Shown: piece by piece, positions 5,927 to 44,177 of the stretch | Numbering within the stretch: the stretch's first letter is position 1 | How the letters are laid out: each line of letters begins with the position of its first letter | Assembly (NCBI RefSeq): GCF_020662265.1 | Contig: NZ_VEWM01000017.1 | Span: 1-64,000, forward strand | Length of the DNA: 64,000 nucleotides | Source of the DNA: Psychrobacter sp. I-STPA6b | GTDB taxonomy: Bacteria > Pseudomonadota > Gammaproteobacteria > Pseudomonadales > Moraxellaceae | Direction of reading: 5' to 3' | Translations under genes and position numbers: made by a program | Notes under the pieces: model-generated | Database searches by the model: none | What the model saw: only the letters and a program-made list of their open reading frames with translations | Told to the model about the DNA's origin: nothing

Positions 5927-6952
5927 ATGGCAGTAGATTTTTCAAATACTTTAATTGTGGCTATCTCTGCAACGGCTCTTTTTGATTTAAGAGAGTCTGA
6001 GCAGTATTTACAATCTTTAGTCTCTGATGATGAAGCAAATGCTTTAGATTTATTCCGTCGTTATATGAAAGAAAGAGAAGATGAAGTTTTAAGTAAAGGG
6101 GCAGGTTATCCTCTTATTAAGGCATTATTAAATTTAAATTATTGTATAGAACATGGTTGCCAAAAAAGTGCAGATAAGCTACAAACTTATAATTATCAAT
6201 CACCATTGGTAGAGGTCGTGATTGTATCAAAAAGTACACCAGATATTGGTATTCAGGTACTAAACTCTATTCGCCATTATGGTTTAGATATTACACGTTC
6301 AGCATTTATCTCTGGTGAGGGCGTGGCAGATTATATTGCAAATTTTAATGTCGATTTATTTTTAACCACAAATCGAGAGGATGCACAGCAAGTGACAGAT
6401 GCTGGTGTATGTGCTTGTGCTATTTTAGATGCAACCCCTGTCAATACATATGAATTGGATACTGATCAGTTACGAATTGCATTTGATGGTGATGCAGTAT
6501 TGTTTGATGATTCTGGAGAGTTATTATATAAGCAAAAAGGATTAAAGGCTTTTCATGATAGAGAAGCGGCGATGGCTGATATGCCCATTGAAAAAGGTCC
6601 TTATGCTGATTTATTAATTAAGTTGTCTAATCTACAACGACGCTTACCAACACATTTAAATGATAAGCCTATTTGCATTGCTTTGGTAACGGCTCGCAAT
6701 GCACCAGCAGATTTGCGGGCAATTAAGACATTACGAGAGTGGGGAGTCAATGTAGATTTGGCTTTCTTTTTGGGTGGATTAGAGAAAACATCTGTGTTAC
6801 AAACTTTTGCACCGCATATCTTCTTTGATGATTCAATTAAACATATCAATGCTGCTCGACAGGTTGTTCCTTCTGGATTGGTTCCCTATCAGTCTTCTTC
6901 ATTATTGTATCGTGATATGGATATGCAAGGGGCAACTTTAAAGCCTATATAG
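5927..6952 (+). CDS. 5'-nucleotidase family protein
   Basis: A 341-aa cytoplasmic protein that resembles the bacterial 5'-nucleotidase family related to animal cytosolic 5'-nucleotidase I (PF06189-like). Members remove phosphate from nucleoside monophosphates. The diagnostic segment is AFDGDAVLFDD, with the HAD-like D187/D189 pair. A later HIFFDDSIKH resembles the second acidic metal-binding motif of HAD phosphatases. There is no signal peptide or membrane segment. The ATG at 5927 has an upstream GAGAG-type RBS. It stands alone between the rRNA terminator and a convergent gene whose stop is only 14 bp away. The family call rests on motif memory; substrate preference cannot be read from the sequence. 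Confidence 0.8.
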   Translation: MAVDFSNTLIVAISATALFDLRESEQYLQSLVSDDEANALDLFRRYMKEREDEVLSKGAGYPLIKALLNLNYCIEHGCQKSADKLQTYNYQSPLVEVVIVSKSTPDIGIQVLNSIRHYGLDITRSAFISGEGVADYIANFNVDLFLTTNREDAQQVTDAGVCACAILDATPVNTYELDTDQLRIAFDGDAVLFDDSGELLYKQKGLKAFHDREAAMADMPIEKGPYADLLIKLSNLQRRLPTHLNDKPICIALVTARNAPADLRAIKTLREWGVNVDLAFFLGGLEKTSVLQTFAPHIFFDDSIKHINAARQVVPSGLVPYQSSSLLYRDMDMQGATLKPI

Positions 6953-34753: not shown

Positions 34754-34972
34754 TACTGGCTAAAATAGATAATATTGAGTGGAATTTTTATGGAAAAATG
34801 TCCATGGATGGTAAATGGCAGTTTTTTCTATGATAATACAGAATCAAGAAAAGTCGTCATGGTTTAGGATATATAGATAACCACTTTATATTCATGTTAT
34901 TTAGTCTGTGATGACACTTTCAAGATAGTTATTCTTTGTTATGTTGTATGAGCATCGAGGAGAAGTTTGGTA

Positions 34973-35761
34973 ATGTTAGCAAAAAAACCAAAAGGAGCGA
35001 CCCAAAAGCAGTCAGGTGGTGGTATATCTGGTCTCATTTGGATGTTTGTTGGTGCTGTTTTAACACTGATGATAGGATTGTTTTTGTACCTATGGAATCC
35101 ATTTGATATGGGGAACTCTGATCCAGTTGCTCCCTCTTCGACTGTGCAACCGAAGGTACAAACAGATACTGACAATCCAGATTATGAGTTTTATGATTTA
35201 TTGCCAGAGCAACAGATTACTAATATTCCAGATGAAGCCATTATTAACGAACGACCACAGCAAGATAGAGACTATCTAGAAGAAGCCCTCACACCAGATG
35301 TTGTGGTGGTAGTGCCAACCCCGACAGATGAAGCACCACGAGAAACAAGAGAGCAAAGTACAGGTGATTTTGAAGTATCAGAAGATACTGTATTAACCAC
35401 GCCATCTCAGTCACAAAGATCATCTGCAGATAATGAAATTATTGTGGTTGAAGAGGCTGAAACCTATGAGGGCAATACAGCATCAGAGCGAAGCTCTGAG
35501 CCAGCGCAAGCAGAACAGCCACGTACCAGCTATATTTTACAGATTAATAGCTTTAGTAATGCAGAAGAAGCAGATCGTCGTCGTGCGCAAGTTCTAATGG
35601 CGGGTGTGGATGCGCAAGTAATAAAAAATGAAACGGCAAGTGGGCAGGTAATTTATCAGGTTATCTCTAACCGAATGAATAACCGCCAAAATGTTGTCAG
35701 AGCGCAACAACGTTTACAAAATAACGGCATTGATAGTCTGATTGTAGAGCAACGCCGTTAA
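34973..35761 (+). CDS. FtsN-like SPOR domain protein
   Basis: A 262-aa single-pass inner-membrane protein. A basic cytoplasmic start (KKPKGATQKQ) precedes one transmembrane helix (about residues 20-40). Residues 45-185 are an acidic, Pro/Thr/Glu-rich periplasmic linker. The C-terminal SPOR domain begins at TSYILQINSF and contains EEADRRRAQVLMAG and GQVIYQVISNRM; SPOR binds denuded septal peptidoglycan. Position after argS and architecture match FtsN, a late divisome activator, although sequence identity to FtsN is usually low. The start at 34973 is set by GAGGAGAAG 7 bp upstream. Confidence 0.85.
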   Translation: MLAKKPKGATQKQSGGGISGLIWMFVGAVLTLMIGLFLYLWNPFDMGNSDPVAPSSTVQPKVQTDTDNPDYEFYDLLPEQQITNIPDEAIINERPQQDRDYLEEALTPDVVVVVPTPTDEAPRETREQSTGDFEVSEDTVLTTPSQSQRSSADNEIIVVEEAETYEGNTASERSSEPAQAEQPRTSYILQINSFSNAEEADRRRAQVLMAGVDAQVIKNETASGQVIYQVISNRMNNRQNVVRAQQRLQNNGIDSLIVEQRR

Positions 35762-36146: not shown

Positions 36147-36755
36147 ATGACTGCTTACCGAAATCTTTGCCCTTCACAACAGCCTTTGGCTCAACTGCTT
36201 TATCATACCATCAAGCAATCTAAATTAAGCTTACAAACCATCGTGCAAAAGATGGGTTATCAACCCAAAAATGTCTTACAAGCCTGTGATAGATTACGTC
36301 ATGTTATTGGTAGTGACTATCTTGGATTGGATAATAGCTATTATGACTTTCGTTTTAGCTCACTTGAATTTTTGCAAGCCTTATTTAAAGCATTAAATAT
36401 CCAGCCTGAGCAGTATCAAGATGAGCTAAATAAATTACAAAATCATTTGCAAAGTAAACAACAAGCGATAAAAAATACCCCTAGCTATTTATTACGGGCT
36501 GATATAGATTTTGACTTTAGCAATAGTGCCAATAATTGGCTAACCAAAATGGGGGTGGCAAAATTTTATCAATTAACCCTACCTGATGATTTTGCTTATC
36601 TTGATAAATTACAACAAGAAAATATGATTACATCATGTATTCAACAACATTATCAGCAATATAAAGATAACTTACCTTATCATGGAATAATCAAAGGCTA
36701 TCGGCTAATTATTGATGATAATAAGCAAAAAGAAGTCATAAAATATTCAGTATAA
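36147..36755 (+). CDS. unrecognised 202-aa protein with an HTH-like N-terminal half
   Basis: A 202-aa soluble protein. Residues 1-100 are helical and read like an atypical DNA- or RNA-binding unit: LAQLLYHTIKQSKLSLQTIV, QKMGYQPKNVLQACDRLRHV, then a YYDFRFSSLEFLQALFKALNI segment that resembles the end of Xre-like domains. Residues 110-140 are polar and Gln-rich; the C-terminal 70 residues form a mixed alpha/beta unit ending in YRLIIDDNKQKEVIKYSV. It has a well-formed promoter, a structured leader, a good RBS and a terminator, so it is a real stand-alone gene. I do not recognise a family; a self-regulating DNA-binding protein is a guess. Confidence 0.6.
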   Translation: MTAYRNLCPSQQPLAQLLYHTIKQSKLSLQTIVQKMGYQPKNVLQACDRLRHVIGSDYLGLDNSYYDFRFSSLEFLQALFKALNIQPEQYQDELNKLQNHLQSKQQAIKNTPSYLLRADIDFDFSNSANNWLTKMGVAKFYQLTLPDDFAYLDKLQQENMITSCIQQHYQQYKDNLPYHGIIKGYRLIIDDNKQKEVIKYSV

Positions 36756-36806
36756 AAAATTTTTGCTGAATGTTAATTTACTGAATATTAATAATAGACG
36801 ATAATA

Positions 36807-36844
36807 AAAACAGCCATGATTAGATAGCAATCATGGCTGTTTTA
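36807..36844. terminator. bidirectional terminator
   Basis: A 14-bp hairpin (AAAACAGCCATGAT with its complement) with a T-run on each strand. It lies between the 202-aa protein gene and the convergent 497-aa protein gene. Confidence 0.85.
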
Positions 36845-36896
36845 TTTTTAGTTGTACTTATGAGGATAATCTGCCATATGTTTATAATATATGGCA

Positions 36897-38390
36897 CTAA
36901 TATATACCGAAATCAGTTTTTCTGTTTGGTGGAGCGTTTAAAATTGCTTCCACATCTATTGAATCTATATAGTCAAGCATCTCATCAAATGACTGTTCCC
37001 AAGTTTTAATCGTTTCATCGGTAATGACTTCAGGCTTGAACTCAGGAACGTATTGCTCATGCTCATTGCTAGCTTTCGACCACTCATATTTTCTTTTCTC
37101 TCGCCAATTTTTCTTTCTTATTCCATTCACATAACCAAAATATCTGGCTGATATATACTCTTCTTTATATACTGCTATCAGCTCTTTAAAGTTTGGTTGT
37201 TGGGTGATTTTAGCTAAAGCGAGCATCATGTGTGGTTCGGCAAGAGACTCAACATAAGAGCTAATCTCACCTGCGGCTATAAGCTTTTGTCGCATTAACT
37301 TATTAAGTGCTAGCATGTTTTGTGGTCTTATAAGGTGTCTTTGGTACTCATCATCTATATCCTCAGGGGCTTTATCATAACTTCTTAATAATTTATACAA
37401 GCTTTGAGCATCTTGACAGTGCTGCAAAATATGTACAAACATATCTAAAGCTAAGGCGACTTGATATTTTAAATCACTTAGTGATGAGATTGGCATACCT
37501 GAATAACTAAAAACCTTCATCATCGTTTCGATGTCTAGGTCTACCGCATGCTCTGTGCCTCTATAAAAGTTCTTCATAGTAATATCAATATATTGATCAA
37601 GACCCATAGTACCTGCACAGGTTTTTATAGTACCAGAAGGTATGTCATTGATATAAATTTCTATACTAGAAAAAAAGTCAATTATGACACTTCCATCAGG
37701 GGTCTTCTCATGAGTTCGGTTTTTTGCGTTTATCCAAAAAACCACTTGTATTCTTTCATATTCAAAATAATAAGCAGTTTTGCCTACTTTTCTTTTTTGC
37801 TTGATGCCTGCCTGTTTAAATCTGTCTTTGATCATGTCATTGACTATTTTGTTTATTTGCGTTTGTGACTCAGGCAAGCTATCGTCGTCAATGGGCGTGG
37901 TGGACATGGATGCTTCTTGTTCAAGCTCTGCTAGCTTTTGTTGCCATGTCTGCTCAGTATGGGCGACAAAATCTTGCCAATCTACTTCTTCATCGACGAG
38001 TATGACACGACCATCAGGCAAAAAAACGGATTCAAGATTGTTATGCATCACCACTAGGTTATGCTCCCTAGCGACTTTAATGATAGGTGCCGAAAATTCA
38101 ATGATAAGACCCTCTGGAGCGTAGTCAATTTCAAAAACTGGATAATCCTCGTCTTTGGTTTGTGATACGAGGTCTTGATAGTAGTCAAAGACATCATCGT
38201 CACCAAAATAAGGCTTTGCTTGTGCCAAAAATTCTTCTATGGCTTGAGCAACTGCCACAAAAGCTTGTTTTGTCTTTTTATCTGCTGATATACCTTTTTC
38301 TTTTATTTGCTCTCTCATGGTAAGGGCTTGCCCATGACTGTTTGGTATGCCTTGCTCGGCAGACCATAGTGATATTCCATCAAAGCTCAT
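36897..38390 (-). CDS. unrecognised 497-aa cytoplasmic protein
   Basis: A 497-aa soluble acidic protein with no family that I recognise. Residues 1-165 form one domain (SLWSAEQGIPNSHGQ near the start, FEIDYAPEGLIIEFSAPI, DGRVILVDEEVDWQDFV). A low-complexity hinge follows around residues 165-185. Residues 185-300 form an alpha/beta unit with a VGKTAYYFEYERIQVVFWI strand pair. The last 200 residues are helical and charged (RKKNWREKRKYEW). No nuclease, helicase, ATPase or transmembrane motif is evident. It has a short AT-rich gap to the hydrolase gene upstream and ends at a shared terminator. The context (unknown genes, C5 methyltransferase nearby) suggests accessory function. Confidence 0.6.
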   Translation of the reverse strand: MSFDGISLWSAEQGIPNSHGQALTMREQIKEKGISADKKTKQAFVAVAQAIEEFLAQAKPYFGDDDVFDYYQDLVSQTKDEDYPVFEIDYAPEGLIIEFSAPIIKVAREHNLVVMHNNLESVFLPDGRVILVDEEVDWQDFVAHTEQTWQQKLAELEQEASMSTTPIDDDSLPESQTQINKIVNDMIKDRFKQAGIKQKRKVGKTAYYFEYERIQVVFWINAKNRTHEKTPDGSVIIDFFSSIEIYINDIPSGTIKTCAGTMGLDQYIDITMKNFYRGTEHAVDLDIETMMKVFSYSGMPISSLSDLKYQVALALDMFVHILQHCQDAQSLYKLLRSYDKAPEDIDDEYQRHLIRPQNMLALNKLMRQKLIAAGEISSYVESLAEPHMMLALAKITQQPNFKELIAVYKEEYISARYFGYVNGIRKKNWREKRKYEWSKASNEHEQYVPEFKPEVITDETIKTWEQSFDEMLDYIDSIDVEAILNAPPNRKTDFGIY

Positions 38391-38581
38391 AAAAACTCCT
38401 AATGATTGCTAATAATTGCGTTTTTTCAATCCTATCATAAAAAACTGCCAAAACCGCATTAAATACAATTGATAATATACAGTCATTTTAAATATTTTAG
38501 GTTTAGCTCAAGTTATCACTAAAACCCCTACCAATTTTTGGTTTCTCTTATCAGGCAAACCAGCTTTATCAATAAAATTAA

Positions 38582-39166
38582 TCAATCCTCACCATAAATC
38601 TCTGCATCATCAACCCAAATAATTGGGTCATCGCATAAATCATTGAGGTAATACCAAATTTCGTCCGCCCGAGCGATACGGTGGTGACCACCTTGATAAT
38701 ATTCAACTTCCCAACTATCGGGCAAATTGACCAAAGTTTGCTGAGCCACTGCCACATCTAATCGCTCATCATCACTCTCTATCATGACATAGGTTTTTTG
38801 TGGATTTGTGGTGTCAAAGGGCAAATCCATATTGGCAACTTCTGGGATACGGTCAGCCAATACCTTGCTAGGGTTGATACAAGGGGCTATCAGCAATGCC
38901 CGCAGATTATATTTATGGGCAAAATGATTGGCAAACCAACCACCCAAAGAATGACCCGCTAAGACGACTTGTGGATATTGTGCTATTTTTTGTTTAATTA
39001 GTTCATCATAAATGGTAAATATTTCTTTAAGATTTTCTCGATAATTGACGGTTTGACAATATTTAGGCTCACGATTAATACAAGTGTATTTACTGGTTTC
39101 ATTGCTAGAATCCAAACCATGAAAAAATAATAAAAAGGTATTGTTATTCTCAATGGGTAACATCAT
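38582..39166 (-). CDS. UPF0227/YqiA-type alpha/beta hydrolase
   Basis: A 194-aa protein of the small serine-hydrolase family that includes YqiA and YcfP. The oxyanion-side motif LLFFHGLDSSNE and the nucleophile elbow AGHSLGGWFANHF are present. The acid is probably the Asp in VMIESDDERLD and the His is in YYQGGHHRI. Such proteins have weak esterase activity; physiological substrates are unclear. It lies 62 bp downstream of the 292-aa protein gene on the same strand, so the two are probably cotranscribed. No export signal. Confidence 0.82.
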   Translation of the reverse strand: MMLPIENNNTFLLFFHGLDSSNETSKYTCINREPKYCQTVNYRENLKEIFTIYDELIKQKIAQYPQVVLAGHSLGGWFANHFAHKYNLRALLIAPCINPSKVLADRIPEVANMDLPFDTTNPQKTYVMIESDDERLDVAVAQQTLVNLPDSWEVEYYQGGHHRIARADEIWYYLNDLCDDPIIWVDDAEIYGED

Positions 39167-39227
39167 AGTTTTTCACCTTTGGTAGTTTTTCAATTCTTTT
39201 GCTAGTTTTGTTAAATGGTTTTGTATT

Positions 39228-40106
39228 TTAGATAGACTGATAAATACTAAATAATTGATAAACTTCTTGGGCTACCTGTTCTGGTATGTGACAACAGTCT
39301 TTAAAAAAGTTTTTATCAAATATTTGGCTGATGGTTTTTTTAACAGTGTTAGGGTTGTCTATGATTTGCTGTTTGTGATTTTTAATCAATGCTAAGGCTA
39401 CCGCTTCTGCTTCTGATGAATATTCGTCCCATGCATGATTAAAATAACACCCCACAGGACCAAAGTCATGACGATAAAAGACATCGGTAATGGCAAGCAT
39501 AAAGTCAGTTTGTGATGGGCTGTATTTACTTAACCAGTTTTGTTTGCAGTCATGTCGAGTATCGAAAGTTAAGGGCAAAATGGGTCGGTCATTCGGGTCG
39601 TTTAGGCGGTCGGCGGATACAATCGTACTGGGCTTACGTAAATCTGACCATAATAATGGACTTGCACCCGATAGTGTCCCATGAATGACATCATTAAACC
39701 TCCAAACTCCCCAACGCTCACTGTCAGCACGAGAGATGGTGTAGATGATAAATTGATTAAGTCCATCGCTATCATACATTATATGTTGGCTGGCGATTTT
39801 CACACCTTGCATGGGCAATACGTCAGTATATAGTCGGTCGATATGCTCTTGAGCATAGCTGTCAGGACAGATAAATCCATGCGTATCCTTTGCGATTAAC
39901 TCACAAGGCATAACAAAATCTAAGGTTTCCTCACTGTTATTAACAAAATAAATATCGTCTGTTAGGTTATCAATGGAGATGGTTTGTAAGTAAAATAAGG
40001 GTGTTTTGATTTTTGGGGTTGGGTTTTCTAAATGGTTTAATTTAGATAAGTTGGATTGTCCTGACCAAGTTAAGTTATTGATACGGTGTTGAATAAAATT
40101 GCTCAT
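39228..40106 (-). CDS. unrecognised 292-aa protein
   Basis: A 292-aa soluble protein of no family that I recognise. The sequence is rich in aromatic and acidic residues, with apparent beta segments (TPLFYLQTISID, DIYFVNNSEETLDFVMPCEL) then a conserved-looking middle (FIIYTISRADSERWGVWRF, GASPLLWSDLRKP) and a helical end. The start is set at 40106 by GAGAGGAAAA upstream; an in-frame ATG five codons earlier overlaps that RBS. It is probably in one transcript with the UPF0227-type hydrolase. No catalytic motif is visible. Confidence 0.6.
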   Translation of the reverse strand: MSNFIQHRINNLTWSGQSNLSKLNHLENPTPKIKTPLFYLQTISIDNLTDDIYFVNNSEETLDFVMPCELIAKDTHGFICPDSYAQEHIDRLYTDVLPMQGVKIASQHIMYDSDGLNQFIIYTISRADSERWGVWRFNDVIHGTLSGASPLLWSDLRKPSTIVSADRLNDPNDRPILPLTFDTRHDCKQNWLSKYSPSQTDFMLAITDVFYRHDFGPVGCYFNHAWDEYSSEAEAVALALIKNHKQQIIDNPNTVKKTISQIFDKNFFKDCCHIPEQVAQEVYQLFSIYQSI

Positions 40107-40488
40107 TAATTTTCCTCTCATTTTATTTTTTAAAGTAAGGGTTGTAAGGTATAAGTTTTAAGATATGGATTTAAAGGTATGGTGGTTTGGTTTAAGTTAG
40201 CCACTTTTTATCATAACCAGTTGTATTTTGGTGAAATTTAAGTTTGATTAAATGTGTTTGATGTTGTGAGTTAAAAAAGTTTAAAAGTAAGATGGTTTGT
40301 GGTTGGTGATGTTTTTTATAAAAGGGTTTGTAAAAATAGATGGTTTTGTGAAGTTTGGTAGTTGTTACCTATGTGTTGTTTTATAAGTTCACTATAATAG
40401 AGAAAATCCAAAAAAGGAATAACCTGTGATATGGTTTACGACATTAGTTGTCGTGATGTTTTAAGATATAGAATAAAATATATAGGAA
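40107..40488. other. strongly G/T-skewed spacer
   Basis: About 380 bp between divergent genes. From about 40125 to 40380 the plus strand has very few C (under ten in 240 bases) and many G and T, with repeated TGGTTTG and GGTTTGT words. No ORF with an RBS is present. Both divergent promoters must lie here; a TATAAT-like element is near 40395 for the plus-strand gene. Confidence 0.5.
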
Positions 40489-40494
40489 ATGGCG

Positions 40495-40794
40495 ATGATG
40501 GATACAAACTCAAATAACAGCTCTAGCTTGAATCAATCAGTTATGTTGTCCATTATTGTGAGAGCTATTGGGCGGATAATAATTAGTGTGCTGATTGCCA
40601 CTTTTGGATTTTATTTGGCATTTATGTCCACAGTTGGACCAACCATTGCCCCAGAGGTGTGGGACGGTGATTTGGATATGTTAATACGATTAAGTGTTTT
40701 GGGGCTTGGGTTTTTAACCATGATTGGGGCAGTAGTTTGGTTGATTTTTCCTGTGGCGAAACGGGTATTTGCTATGCTGAATAAGTCGTTGTAA
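40495..40794 (+). CDS. small two-helix membrane protein of unknown function
   Basis: A 99-aa protein. After a polar Asn/Ser-rich N-terminus there are two hydrophobic segments (about residues 17-45 and 65-90), the second ending in basic residues (VAKRVFAML). A conserved-looking acidic loop (APEVWDGDLDML) separates them. ATG 40495 is favoured because AGGAA lies 6 bp upstream; ATG 40489 directly abuts it. Family not recognised. Confidence 0.6.
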   Translation: MMDTNSNNSSSLNQSVMLSIIVRAIGRIIISVLIATFGFYLAFMSTVGPTIAPEVWDGDLDMLIRLSVLGLGFLTMIGAVVWLIFPVAKRVFAMLNKSL

Positions 40795-40880
40795 TTTTAT
40801 GATGGTATGTTGATGTTATTGTTAGTTAAGACAGTGGTTAAGGTGGTTTGGTATCACTATCATCAATGTGGTTAATGTGG

Positions 40881-41834
40881 CTAAATCAATGCCAAAATAC
40901 CCTCAGCAATCCTTTTTATCAATGGTACAGTAACAGAGTTACCTGCCTGCATATATAGTTTACTCATCGCCATATTCTCAGGCAAGATAAAATCTTTGGG
41001 GTATCCTTGAAATAAAAAACACTCTCTTGGGGTTAGTTTACGAATACCATAATTGTCTTTAATTAAAGGCACATTATGCCCACCTGTTCCCATATTAGCT
41101 GTTAGGGTAGGGCAGACATTATTTTTATTTTCACGGACATACACCCGTCGCCATTGATATAAGGTATCTTGACTGGTCATATTTTTGATAAGTTCAGGAT
41201 AGTATTTATGGGTTTTTGCATAATAAAACTTATCCTCTTTTTTATCATCAATATTGATAATATCATGAATGGTTTTTTTAAGGGTTATTGGTTCTGGAAA
41301 TTGAAAATCTTGATGGTTTTTGACACTTTTAGGGTCAAAGGCGACAATAAATATTCGCTCTCGATTTTGTGGAATATTGGCATATTCCATGGTGTTTAAT
41401 ACTTGATAATAAACTTTATAGCCAAGCTTTGCTTCTAAGGTCGATAAAATCACTTTAAAAGTATTGCCTTTATCATGCCCGACTAAGTTTTTGACATTTT
41501 CTAAAAAGACAACTTTGGGGCGGTGTTTGGTAATGATTTGTTCAATATCAAAAAACAATGTACCACGAGTATCTGCAAAGCCTTTTTGATAGCCTGCGAT
41601 AGAAAATGCTTGGCAAGGAAAGCCTGCACATAAAATATCAAAGTTATCTGGGATTTGTTGTTTGATGTCATCTTGAGTGATGTCGCCTTTGGGCTGTATG
41701 CCGTGATTTTGTTCATAGGTATGGCAGGCATTAGGTTCAATTTCACTGGCAAATACACATTGCCCGCCCAAGCTCTCTAATGCCAAATGAAAGCCACCAA
41801 CACCTGCAAATAAATCAATAAAGGTAAAAGCCAC
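40881..41834 (-). CDS. DNA (cytosine-5-)-methyltransferase
   Basis: A 317-aa C5 methyltransferase that methylates a cytosine within a specific DNA sequence. Motifs in order: I DLFAGVGGFHLALE, IV DILCAGFPCQAFSIAG with the catalytic C74, VI VVFLENVKNL, VIII NIPQNRERIFIVAF, IX RKLTPRECFLFQG, X MQAGNSVTVPLI. The target-recognition region lies between VIII and IX (about residues 185-260). The length is normal for a type II enzyme. No restriction endonuclease gene is adjacent on either side, so it is an orphan here or has lost its partner. The recognition sequence cannot be read from the protein. Confidence 0.93.
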   Translation of the reverse strand: MAFTFIDLFAGVGGFHLALESLGGQCVFASEIEPNACHTYEQNHGIQPKGDITQDDIKQQIPDNFDILCAGFPCQAFSIAGYQKGFADTRGTLFFDIEQIITKHRPKVVFLENVKNLVGHDKGNTFKVILSTLEAKLGYKVYYQVLNTMEYANIPQNRERIFIVAFDPKSVKNHQDFQFPEPITLKKTIHDIINIDDKKEDKFYYAKTHKYYPELIKNMTSQDTLYQWRRVYVRENKNNVCPTLTANMGTGGHNVPLIKDNYGIRKLTPRECFLFQGYPKDFILPENMAMSKLYMQAGNSVTVPLIKRIAEGILALI

Positions 41835-41900
41835 GCCTACTGCCCCGTTGTTTGTTTCAGTTGTGTTCAGTTGATAAAGCGGGGTATTTTAACACACTAG

Positions 41901-44177
41901 CTACCAACCCACAGGGTCAATATCTAAGGTGAGTTTTAGATATTTTGCCGAAGGTAGTTGCAACACTTGCTCCCACCATTGTTGCAGGATTTGATGTAGG
42001 TGAGGGCGGTTTTTGCTCAGTAGTAATATCTGAGCGTGATAACGGCTGTTTTTTTTGTGCATTGGTGCATCAATAGGTCCTAACACTGCTAGCTCGTTTG
42101 GTGTGGGCAAAATAGCCAACGCATCTTTTAATGCCTGATTGGTACGCTCACTGGTTTTGCCCTCACAGCGAATCAGAGCTGCATGCGTGTAGGGCGGCAA
42201 ACCCATGACTTGGCGTTCGTGTAGTAGCTGATGGGCAAAGGCAAGATAGCCATCTTTGACCAGTTTTAGTAGTAATGGATTGTCAGGTTGCACCGTTTGG
42301 ATAAGCACCTTTCCTGCTTTATCGCCCCGTCCAGCCCGACCAGCCACTTGAATAATAAGTTGGGCAGTATGCTCAGGCGAACGAAAATCTGCTGACAAAA
42401 AACCTCTATCTGCATTGGGCAACACGACTAGGGTGACATTGGGAAAGTGGTGACCTTTGGCAACCATTTGTGTGCCAACCAAAATAGCAGGCTTGCCTTG
42501 ATTAATCCGCCGATAGATATCTTCCCAACTGTCTTTACGGCGGGTGGTATCGCGGTCAATTTGGATAATGGGGTAGGTGGTTTTACTGGTCTGCGGATTG
42601 GAAAAAATAGCGTGTAGGCTTTCGCTCAGCCGTGTCGTTCCCATGCCCACAGGGTCAATATTTTGGCTACCACAATCAGGGCAAGCTTTTGGAATATGTG
42701 CCTGCCAGTCGCAATGATGGCATTTAAGATAAGAAGGTTTGTGCTGCTCAAGTTGGCTATGATGGACGGTCAAATGTGCCTCACAGCGTGGACAGTCTGC
42801 CTGCCAACCACATGCCCCACACAATAGCACAGGGGCATAACCTCGCCGATTTAAAAACACCAAAACTTGCTCACCTGCCTCTAATGTCTGTCGAATGGCG
42901 TTGATGGTGTCAGAGGTGAGTCCTGTATTTTGTGGTTGTCCATCTGGCTGTTGGCTGTATTCAGTGGGTTTGTCACGAGCATCCACCAGTTGTAGATTGG
43001 CGGTGGTGGCGTGTCCTGCTCGTTTAGTCAGTTGCAGTTCGGTCAGCTTGCCATCAGTGACCAATTTAAGCTGTTCTAGGGATGGCGTTGCCGTTCCTAA
43101 TACCACTGCTATTCCTAACTGATAACCTCGATACAGTGCCACATCTGCCGCTTGATAGCGTAGGGTATCTTGCTGTTTGTAGGATAAATCATGTGCCTCA
43201 TCGACAATAATTAAGCCCAGATTGGCAAAGGGATACAGTAAGGTTGAGCGAGTACCGATGACGATTTGAGCATGACCTTGACGGCAATCTTGCCAGCCTT
43301 GCATACGTTGGCTGTTATTTAACCCTGAATGTAGCAACAAAATATTGGCAGCAAAGCGACTGGCAAAGCGGGCTTTGGTTTGCGGTGTTAGCCCAATCTC
43401 TGGCACTAATACCAAAACTTGTTTGCCTGCCTCAAGCACAGGTTGCATGGCTTGCAGATATACTTCAGTTTTACCACTGCCAGTGACCCCATTGAGCAAA
43501 AAGCCTTGATATTGGTTTTGCTCACAGGCATGATGAATTTGCTGGACGGCAACTTGTTGCTCATCGTTTAAATCTAAGGGTAGTTTTGCCAAACTCACAG
43601 GCAGTGGGGCAGGTTTTTGTTCAAAATAATGCTCAATTAAGCCATTATCCTCAAGGCGTTTTAAAAAGGGACGCTCCATGCCTTCCATCAGCAAAATATC
43701 TTCACTTGCCCCATTTTTACCATGTAGCTTGAGCATGGCAAACTGCTGTTTTTGTTTTTTGGCATTACTATGAAAATCATCTTCAGTGACGTTAGGCAAT
43801 ACTCGCCAATGGCGAATCAGCAAATCCAGTGGTTTGCCTTGACGGATAAGGGTGGGTAGCATGACTGCCAGCACATCACCAAGCGGGTAATGGTAATAAC
43901 GGGCAAGCCATCGGGCAAGATTAAGCATTGGCTCATCAAGTAACGGCTCATCATCAAGGACTTTTTTTATCGGTTTGAGTTTGCTAGGGTCAATGGGACA
44001 ATCACTAGCATTGATATGAGCGACCACAATACCGATAAGCGTTTGTCGCCCGAATGACACTTGCACTCGACTACCTATTGGCGGTAGAGGGGCGTTGTTA
44101 GAGCTGGAAGAATGTGCGGGGGGAAGGTAATCAAACACCCGATAAAGCGGCACAGGTAGGGCAACACTGACAAGCAT
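41901..44177 (-). CDS. priA: primosomal protein N' (replication restart helicase PriA)
   Basis: A 758-aa superfamily 2 helicase that reloads the replisome at stalled forks. The N-terminal 3' DNA-binding domain is followed by Walker A GVTGSGKTEVYL, Walker B IIVDEAHD (DEAH), motif VALYRG, and a zinc region with eight cysteines (LCGACGWQADCPRCEAHL, then CHHCDW and CPDCGS). Motif V/VI residues are in VGTQMVAKGHHFPNV and IIQVAGRAGRGD. AGGAAA lies upstream of the ATG at 44177. It follows ridA with a 39-bp gap on the same strand, so cotranscription with spoT-ridA is likely. Confidence 0.96.
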   Translation of the reverse strand: MLVSVALPVPLYRVFDYLPPAHSSSSNNAPLPPIGSRVQVSFGRQTLIGIVVAHINASDCPIDPSKLKPIKKVLDDEPLLDEPMLNLARWLARYYHYPLGDVLAVMLPTLIRQGKPLDLLIRHWRVLPNVTEDDFHSNAKKQKQQFAMLKLHGKNGASEDILLMEGMERPFLKRLEDNGLIEHYFEQKPAPLPVSLAKLPLDLNDEQQVAVQQIHHACEQNQYQGFLLNGVTGSGKTEVYLQAMQPVLEAGKQVLVLVPEIGLTPQTKARFASRFAANILLLHSGLNNSQRMQGWQDCRQGHAQIVIGTRSTLLYPFANLGLIIVDEAHDLSYKQQDTLRYQAADVALYRGYQLGIAVVLGTATPSLEQLKLVTDGKLTELQLTKRAGHATTANLQLVDARDKPTEYSQQPDGQPQNTGLTSDTINAIRQTLEAGEQVLVFLNRRGYAPVLLCGACGWQADCPRCEAHLTVHHSQLEQHKPSYLKCHHCDWQAHIPKACPDCGSQNIDPVGMGTTRLSESLHAIFSNPQTSKTTYPIIQIDRDTTRRKDSWEDIYRRINQGKPAILVGTQMVAKGHHFPNVTLVVLPNADRGFLSADFRSPEHTAQLIIQVAGRAGRGDKAGKVLIQTVQPDNPLLLKLVKDGYLAFAHQLLHERQVMGLPPYTHAALIRCEGKTSERTNQALKDALAILPTPNELAVLGPIDAPMHKKNSRYHAQILLLSKNRPHLHQILQQWWEQVLQLPSAKYLKLTLDIDPVGW

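Follow-up and report, generated by a model that had tools for sequence, protein, structure and literature searches.

Between two housekeeping genes of a Psychrobacter strain stands a run of six open reading frames (ORFs), one of which encodes a C5-cytosine DNA methyltransferase, and the question raised by this locus is whether these genes belong together. The window analysed here is a 64,000-nucleotide stretch from Psychrobacter sp. I-STPA6b (contig NZ_VEWM01000017.1, positions 1 to 64,000), and the run lies between argS, which is followed by a SPOR-domain gene, and priA. An earlier note on this DNA had suggested an undescribed defence or exclusion system. We find that it is not a new multi-gene system but an old gene pair, a rare gene and an orphan-looking methyltransferase of the GCNGC type. 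The defence idea survives in one respect only: the site predicted for the methyltransferase, GCNGC, is avoided in this genome alone among those compared, the kind of trace that a type II restriction-modification (R-M) system leaves. The genome-specific avoidance of GCNGC is the part of the locus most worth following.

The methyltransferase is a member of the C5 family, scoring 320 bits against Pfam DNA_methylase (cut-off 22) and 334 bits against TIGR00675 (cut-off 100.65), with the motifs PC at residue 73, ENV at 112 and QNRER (QxRxR) at 156. In PADLOC, the best 25 of 63 rows for this protein are methyltransferase models. Relatives were sought in genus genomes, plasmid records and phages. The best 15 matches among the plasmid records are 52–58% identical and come nearly all from Firmicutes, and enzymes annotated beside restriction endonucleases are 54–56% identical over 97–100% of the length. 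The endonucleases in question are of the Bsp6I family (Streptococcus thermophilus plasmid), the NgoFVII family (Priestia megaterium) and a PLD-domain type (Caldicellulosiruptor). The target-recognition stretch is near-identical in six aligned sequences, including enzymes beside Bsp6I- and NgoFVII-family endonucleases, which by sequence places the window enzyme in the predicted GCNGC-type (M.Bsp6I) group. Bsp6I recognizes GCNGC and NgoFVII recognizes GCSGC. Given this resemblance, GCNGC is the predicted site, and the window methyltransferase most likely methylates a cytosine within it. Portions of PMC9465063 report methylation of GCNGC in Mycoplasma agalactiae by an enzyme named Bsp6IM. M.HhaI, for which a structure has been solved, is of the same C5 family and size (E = 1.6e-67), but its target-recognition region differs from that of the window enzyme. 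The HhaI site is GCGC, for which the ratio of observed to expected counts is 0.59 in the window's own genome (G000) and 0.74 in its closest relative (G323). M.BatI, as described in portions of PMC8936443, is likewise a C5 orphan, with target sites of the GCNGC type (GCDGC), but it has a prophage context, and the likeness is one of description rather than sequence.

If the predicted specificity is right, a cognate restriction enzyme might have left its mark on the genome. GCNGC sites were counted in 780 kb of G000 (pieces L248–L264 and L285–L303 plus the window) and in 94–100 kb of each of eight relatives. Avoidance was expressed as the observed count over that expected from a trinucleotide model, with a bootstrap interval. 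The ratio is 0.49 in G000 (0.42–0.55), compared to 1.14 in G323, the one clearly closer relative identified by a DNA search of 105 genus genomes. It is 1.13 in G053, 1.12 in G044, 1.03 in G031, 1.03 in G026, 1.11 in G296, 1.18 in G308 and 1.06 in G022. These eight relatives, including G323 with 40.3% GC, rule out depletion as a habit of the genus or an effect of GC content. In the window alone, there are 89 GCNGC sites versus 157 expected from dinucleotide shuffles. Over 404 kb of G000, GCWGC (0.47) and GCSGC (0.60) are both low, and no other of 96 palindromes is as depleted relative to G323 as GCNGC, whose z is –12.9, compared to –4.7 for the next, GATC. GATC, GTGCAC and GCGC also fall below their G323 levels, by a much smaller margin in z. 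The longest GCNGC-free run in G000 is 16.5 kb, and 17 of its 156 5-kb blocks are empty; the corresponding runs in the eight other genomes are 0.7–3.3 kb, and no 5-kb block is empty.

The same asymmetry is seen site by site. In 24.7 kb of DNA aligned between G000 and G323 (window 26888–63982), 33 of the 72 GCNGC sites of G323 are kept in G000 and 39 are lost, versus 33 kept and 2 lost of the 35 sites of G000 (P = 8e-10 on the 41 discordant sites). The control CGNCG is even, with 17/26 kept one way and 17/27 the other. Avoidance that is specific to the carrier genome, as found here, is the usual mark of a type II R-M system, past or present. Portions of PMC4687349 describe site avoidance for type II R-M, including avoidance left behind by systems since lost; the cases given there resemble ours in that one type II site is depleted in one genome and not in close relatives, and they differ in that G000 retains a methyltransferase of matching type and its avoidance is patchy. 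Site avoidance can in this way test the predicted specificity of an orphan methyltransferase from sequence alone.

We read the loss of GCNGC as restriction avoidance, and the methyltransferase as one half of a type II system, either outliving its partner or parted from it. The reading that we favour, with a probability of about two in three, is that the interval is a patchwork in which a GCNGC-type methyltransferase is left from a type II R-M system whose endonuclease has been lost or lies elsewhere. The lineage would long have carried a restriction enzyme that cut unmethylated GCNGC, leading to genome-wide selection against the site, and the present methyltransferase, presumably active, would be the protective half of that system. 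The likeness to the Bsp6I and NgoFVII systems extends from protein identity and the target-recognition stretch to the avoided site; the difference is that no endonuclease adjoins the window methyltransferase and the Bsp6I family is absent from the genome. As the earlier note had observed, no cognate endonuclease gene is found among the neighbours of the methyltransferase (by ORFs, Pfam or PADLOC), and hence there is no complete type II R-M system at this place.

Several points weigh against this reading. The z and P values above take sites as independent, yet the counts are overdispersed (variance/mean 4.3 per 5 kb). Avoidance is patchy, ranging from 0.02 to 1.0 of expectation per 20-kb piece, which uniform selection alone does not explain, and some aligned segments keep most of their GCNGC sites (e.g. 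11/15 in argS). Import of DNA from non-avoiding relatives at a later time might explain the GCNGC-rich patches. A genome-wide search finds no member of the Bsp6I family (PF09504), and examples of NgoFVII, PLD and Bsp6I endonucleases have no match in 784 kb of the 3.2 Mb (about a quarter). One related plasmid methyltransferase is without an annotated endonuclease beside it, making a never-partnered orphan possible. Finally, portions of PMC9465063 give the GCNGC modification as 5-methylcytosine in one table and as N4-methylcytosine, by single-molecule real-time sequencing, elsewhere. If the patchiness holds genome-wide, this species would be suited to dating the loss of a restriction system and mapping later DNA imports.

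The alternative that fares best is that the restriction enzyme is still encoded elsewhere in the genome, perhaps as an unrecognized kind, in a split but working R-M system. The very strong local avoidance (1 site versus 50 expected in one 20-kb piece) fits activity until recently, and NgoFVII-type genes were searched for in just the 784 kb. Against it stand the lack of an endonuclease beside the methyltransferase, the genome-wide absence of PF09504, and the patches with a normal site count, which suggest relaxed restriction. We regard a still-present enzyme as possible, at odds of roughly two to one against.

GCNGC could also have been lost by mutation, through deamination of cytosines methylated by an orphan methyltransferase, with no restriction enzyme involved. 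C5 methylation raises C-to-T mutation, and the enzyme is predicted to act on GCNGC. However, the 52 single-base differences at G323 GCNGC sites involve both positions and all bases: C>T accounts for 13/25 at the inner position and G>A for 14/27 at the outer. Transitions make up 27/52 of these changes, compared to 12/16 at the control CGNCG sites. The one-step products GTNGC (1.02) and ACNGC (1.11) are hardly enriched versus G323, with CCNGC at 1.18. That the changes are not concentrated in inner C-to-T argues against deamination and for selection, and we consider the mutational explanation unlikely. To the same degree unlikely, in our estimation, is that the methyltransferase is a recent phage- or plasmid-borne orphan protecting against GCNGC restriction, with the avoidance due to an independent, older cause. 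Its relatives on phages, and on the plasmid without an annotated endonuclease, fit such an origin, but the match between the predicted motif and the most depleted of 96 palindromes would then be chance. Slightly less probable still is a GCNGC-cutting endonuclease that escapes current models and could be present to this day (the 497-residue protein of the interval being a remote candidate only); this enzyme would have emptied long stretches, and the normal patches would be later imports forming a natural recombination barcode.

What, then, are the neighbours of the methyltransferase? All six ORFs between the SPOR-domain gene and priA are found as the earlier note had claimed. We refer to the 202-, 497-, 297- and 101-residue proteins as u202, u497, u297 and m101, and the features are as follows.

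34967–35761, + strand: SPOR-domain protein (named so in the earlier note), after argS; a flank, kept in G323 (59%).
36147–36755, + strand: u202, 202 residues; genus-wide family, often in two copies.
36897–38390, – strand: u497, 497 residues; rare accessory gene between hydrolase and u202.
38582–39166, – strand: alpha/beta hydrolase, UPF0227, 194 residues, GHSLG motif; second gene of a conserved pair.
39228–40121, – strand: u297, 297 residues from the first ATG, 292 from a later ATG; first gene of the pair.
40489–40794, + strand: m101, 101 residues from the first ATG, 99 from a later one; membrane-type by eye.
40881–41834, – strand: C5-cytosine DNA methyltransferase, 317 residues from a GTG; predicted GCNGC specificity.
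40777–41902, no strand: segment in the position of the CDF gene of G323; similarity to G323 is lost close to where m101 ends and where priA ends.
41901–44177, – strand: priA, flanking core gene.

For each of five of the six ORFs, between 23 and 53 of the 60 genus genomes hold a relative (counts that, like all those for the genus given below, ignore shared ancestry), and for the sixth, u497, one genome holds a near-full-length relative; hence none of the six is a chance ORF. The genus is Psychrobacter, to which all 31 loci with u297 relatives in named records belong. With argS and priA each present in 60/60 genomes, the flanks are core genes, as had been proposed. A core-flanked interval, though, is seen only here and in G323, because argS and priA lie ∼290–320 kb apart in G053, G029 and G031. 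No family in Pfam, NCBIfam, PADLOC or PHROGs comes near its cut-off for u202, u497, u297 or m101, and PADLOC-DB 2.0.0 gives 0 families at E up to 1 for five of the six proteins.

In G323, the order of genes is argS, the SPOR-domain gene, the hydrolase gene (90% identical), m101 (77%), a gene for a CDF cation exporter, priA and the gene after priA. The exporter is 398 residues long and has the Pfam domains Cation_efflux and ZT_dimer. The G323 interval thus holds just the hydrolase, m101 and the exporter; none of u202, u497, u297 and the methyltransferase is found there. G000 and G323 remain similar up to the end of priA on one side and almost to the end of m101 on the other; the stretch in between carries the methyltransferase gene in G000 and the CDF gene in G323. 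A CDF gene directly follows priA in 23/23 loci checked outside the window, G323 included. By contrast, the window does not show this arrangement, and no CDF relative is found in it or in 784 kb of G000. The methyltransferase gene therefore occupies the place of a genus-conserved exporter gene, which it would have replaced. Among methyltransferase matches listed on priA's own contig, none lies within 50 kb of priA; matches on other contigs cannot be placed. A C5 methyltransferase match of some kind is present in 23/60 genus genomes, this one counted. By eye, the best full-length match in another genome (G014) resembles HhaI-type enzymes, and it is without the GCNGC recognition motif, which was scanned for in a subset of loci rather than in all 60 genomes.

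The hydrolase and u297 form the one tightly linked unit. The gene for u297 is present in 34/60 genus genomes and the hydrolase gene (strong matches) in 38/60, covering all 34. For 35/35 copies of u297, the next gene downstream is that of the hydrolase, on the same strand, and 27–263 bases separate the matched stretches. In the four genomes with the hydrolase but without u297, the hydrolase follows the CDF gene beside priA. At the loci read outside the window, the pair stands without a methyltransferase. The hydrolase belongs to UPF0227 (PF05728; 45.2 bits versus a cut-off of 21) and carries a GHSLG motif, as do YqiA and YcfP, but it falls far below the NCBIfam equivalog cut-offs for these two (33 of 252 and 24 of 240 bits) and differs in being paired with u297. 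The structure model of u297 has a mean predicted local distance difference test (pLDDT) score of 56, and Foldseek finds no structure similar to it at E ≤ 0.001.

Relatives of u202 occur in 48/60 genus genomes, and two copies are common. The N-terminal ∼100 residues of u202 are also encoded on their own, as ORFs of 120–123 residues near priA, in G005, G023, G035, G038 and G056 (L153–L157), and in two of these five genomes the short form adjoins an m101 relative. In G296, the genes priA, CDF, u297, hydrolase and a convergent u202 (49–50% identical) have the same order and orientation as in the window, and in G308 priA is accompanied by a short fragment of the hydrolase and by the N-terminal portion of u202. 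The u297–hydrolase block, with u202 nearby, is probably old in the genus, located beside priA in some lineages, such as G296, and elsewhere in others, and some of it has probably been lost from G323. The space that separates m101 from the hydrolase in G323, where u297 would be expected, holds a ∼190-base element (L237, ∼5980–6190) with inverted ends GATCTGTTGAAC and GTTCAACAGACC. By eye it resembles a miniature inverted-repeat transposable element, and it is possibly tied to the loss of u297.

By contrast with the pair, u497 is rare, having relatives in 2/60 genus genomes (itself and G026, where the relative is near-full-length) and in 4/348 family genomes, itself counted. The copies sit at unrelated places, consistent with u497 being a single-gene insertion. 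The G026 relatives are on three contigs (C90, C117 and C7), and those on C117 and C7 lie at the edges of their contigs and may be two parts of a single copy; the neighbours of the G026 relatives are housekeeping-type genes, compared to TauD, sulphite reductase and small ORFs in G272. In G236 (C205, L239), a u497 relative directly follows a HigB toxin gene and a helix-turn-helix gene that is HigA-like by position. Searches of plasmids, phages and viral contigs with u497, of plasmids and viral contigs with two of its relatives, and PDB profile searches with A1, A2 and A3 gave no match. The structure model (mean pLDDT 63) has no Foldseek match at E 0.001 or better. A second structural comparison gave partial PcyA-, frataxin- and CorA-like matches with Z up to 5.7, below the level that the tool treats as meaningful. 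As a partner for the methyltransferase, u497 is disfavoured, since G026 has u497 relatives, no methyltransferase match and a normal GCNGC ratio (1.03). A toxin-immunity role is not claimed, as no model matched and a narrow literature search gave nothing. The most that can be said is that u497 is a rare accessory protein.

A single undescribed defence or exclusion system made up of the entire block, as the co-location of a methyltransferase and unknown genes in a lineage-specific interval had suggested, is thus highly improbable: the u297–hydrolase pair is widespread, yet no full-length methyltransferase match above 48% identity occurs outside G000 in the 60 genus genomes, u497 relatives occur in G026 independently of the methyltransferase, and the other five proteins have no PADLOC match. 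The linkage and co-occurrence that the earlier note proposed to check are not found for the methyltransferase or u497 with the rest, and the parts differ in distribution and have separate histories. Comparison with close relatives thus resolves a suspected defence island into a set of unrelated genes.

Some smaller observations remain. The two spacers flanking m101 (40122–40488 and 40795–40880) have just 5–6% C on the + strand and a high GC skew. G000 has three C5 methyltransferase matches: that of the window, a 47% relative on C35 and one in a prophage-like setting on C84. On C35 (∼150.7–154.8 kb; L264:10707–14807), the methyltransferase is followed by a McrB-like AAA protein (PADLOC REase_II) and then by a 560-residue protein, which has no PADLOC match and which we take to be McrC/LlaJI-like. 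By eye, the recognition stretch of this second methyltransferase fits the CCNGG motif in PMC3346939. The third, at ∼112 kb of C84 (L253:11903–12820), lies in an apparent prophage, as judged by eye from its replication and repressor-like neighbours.

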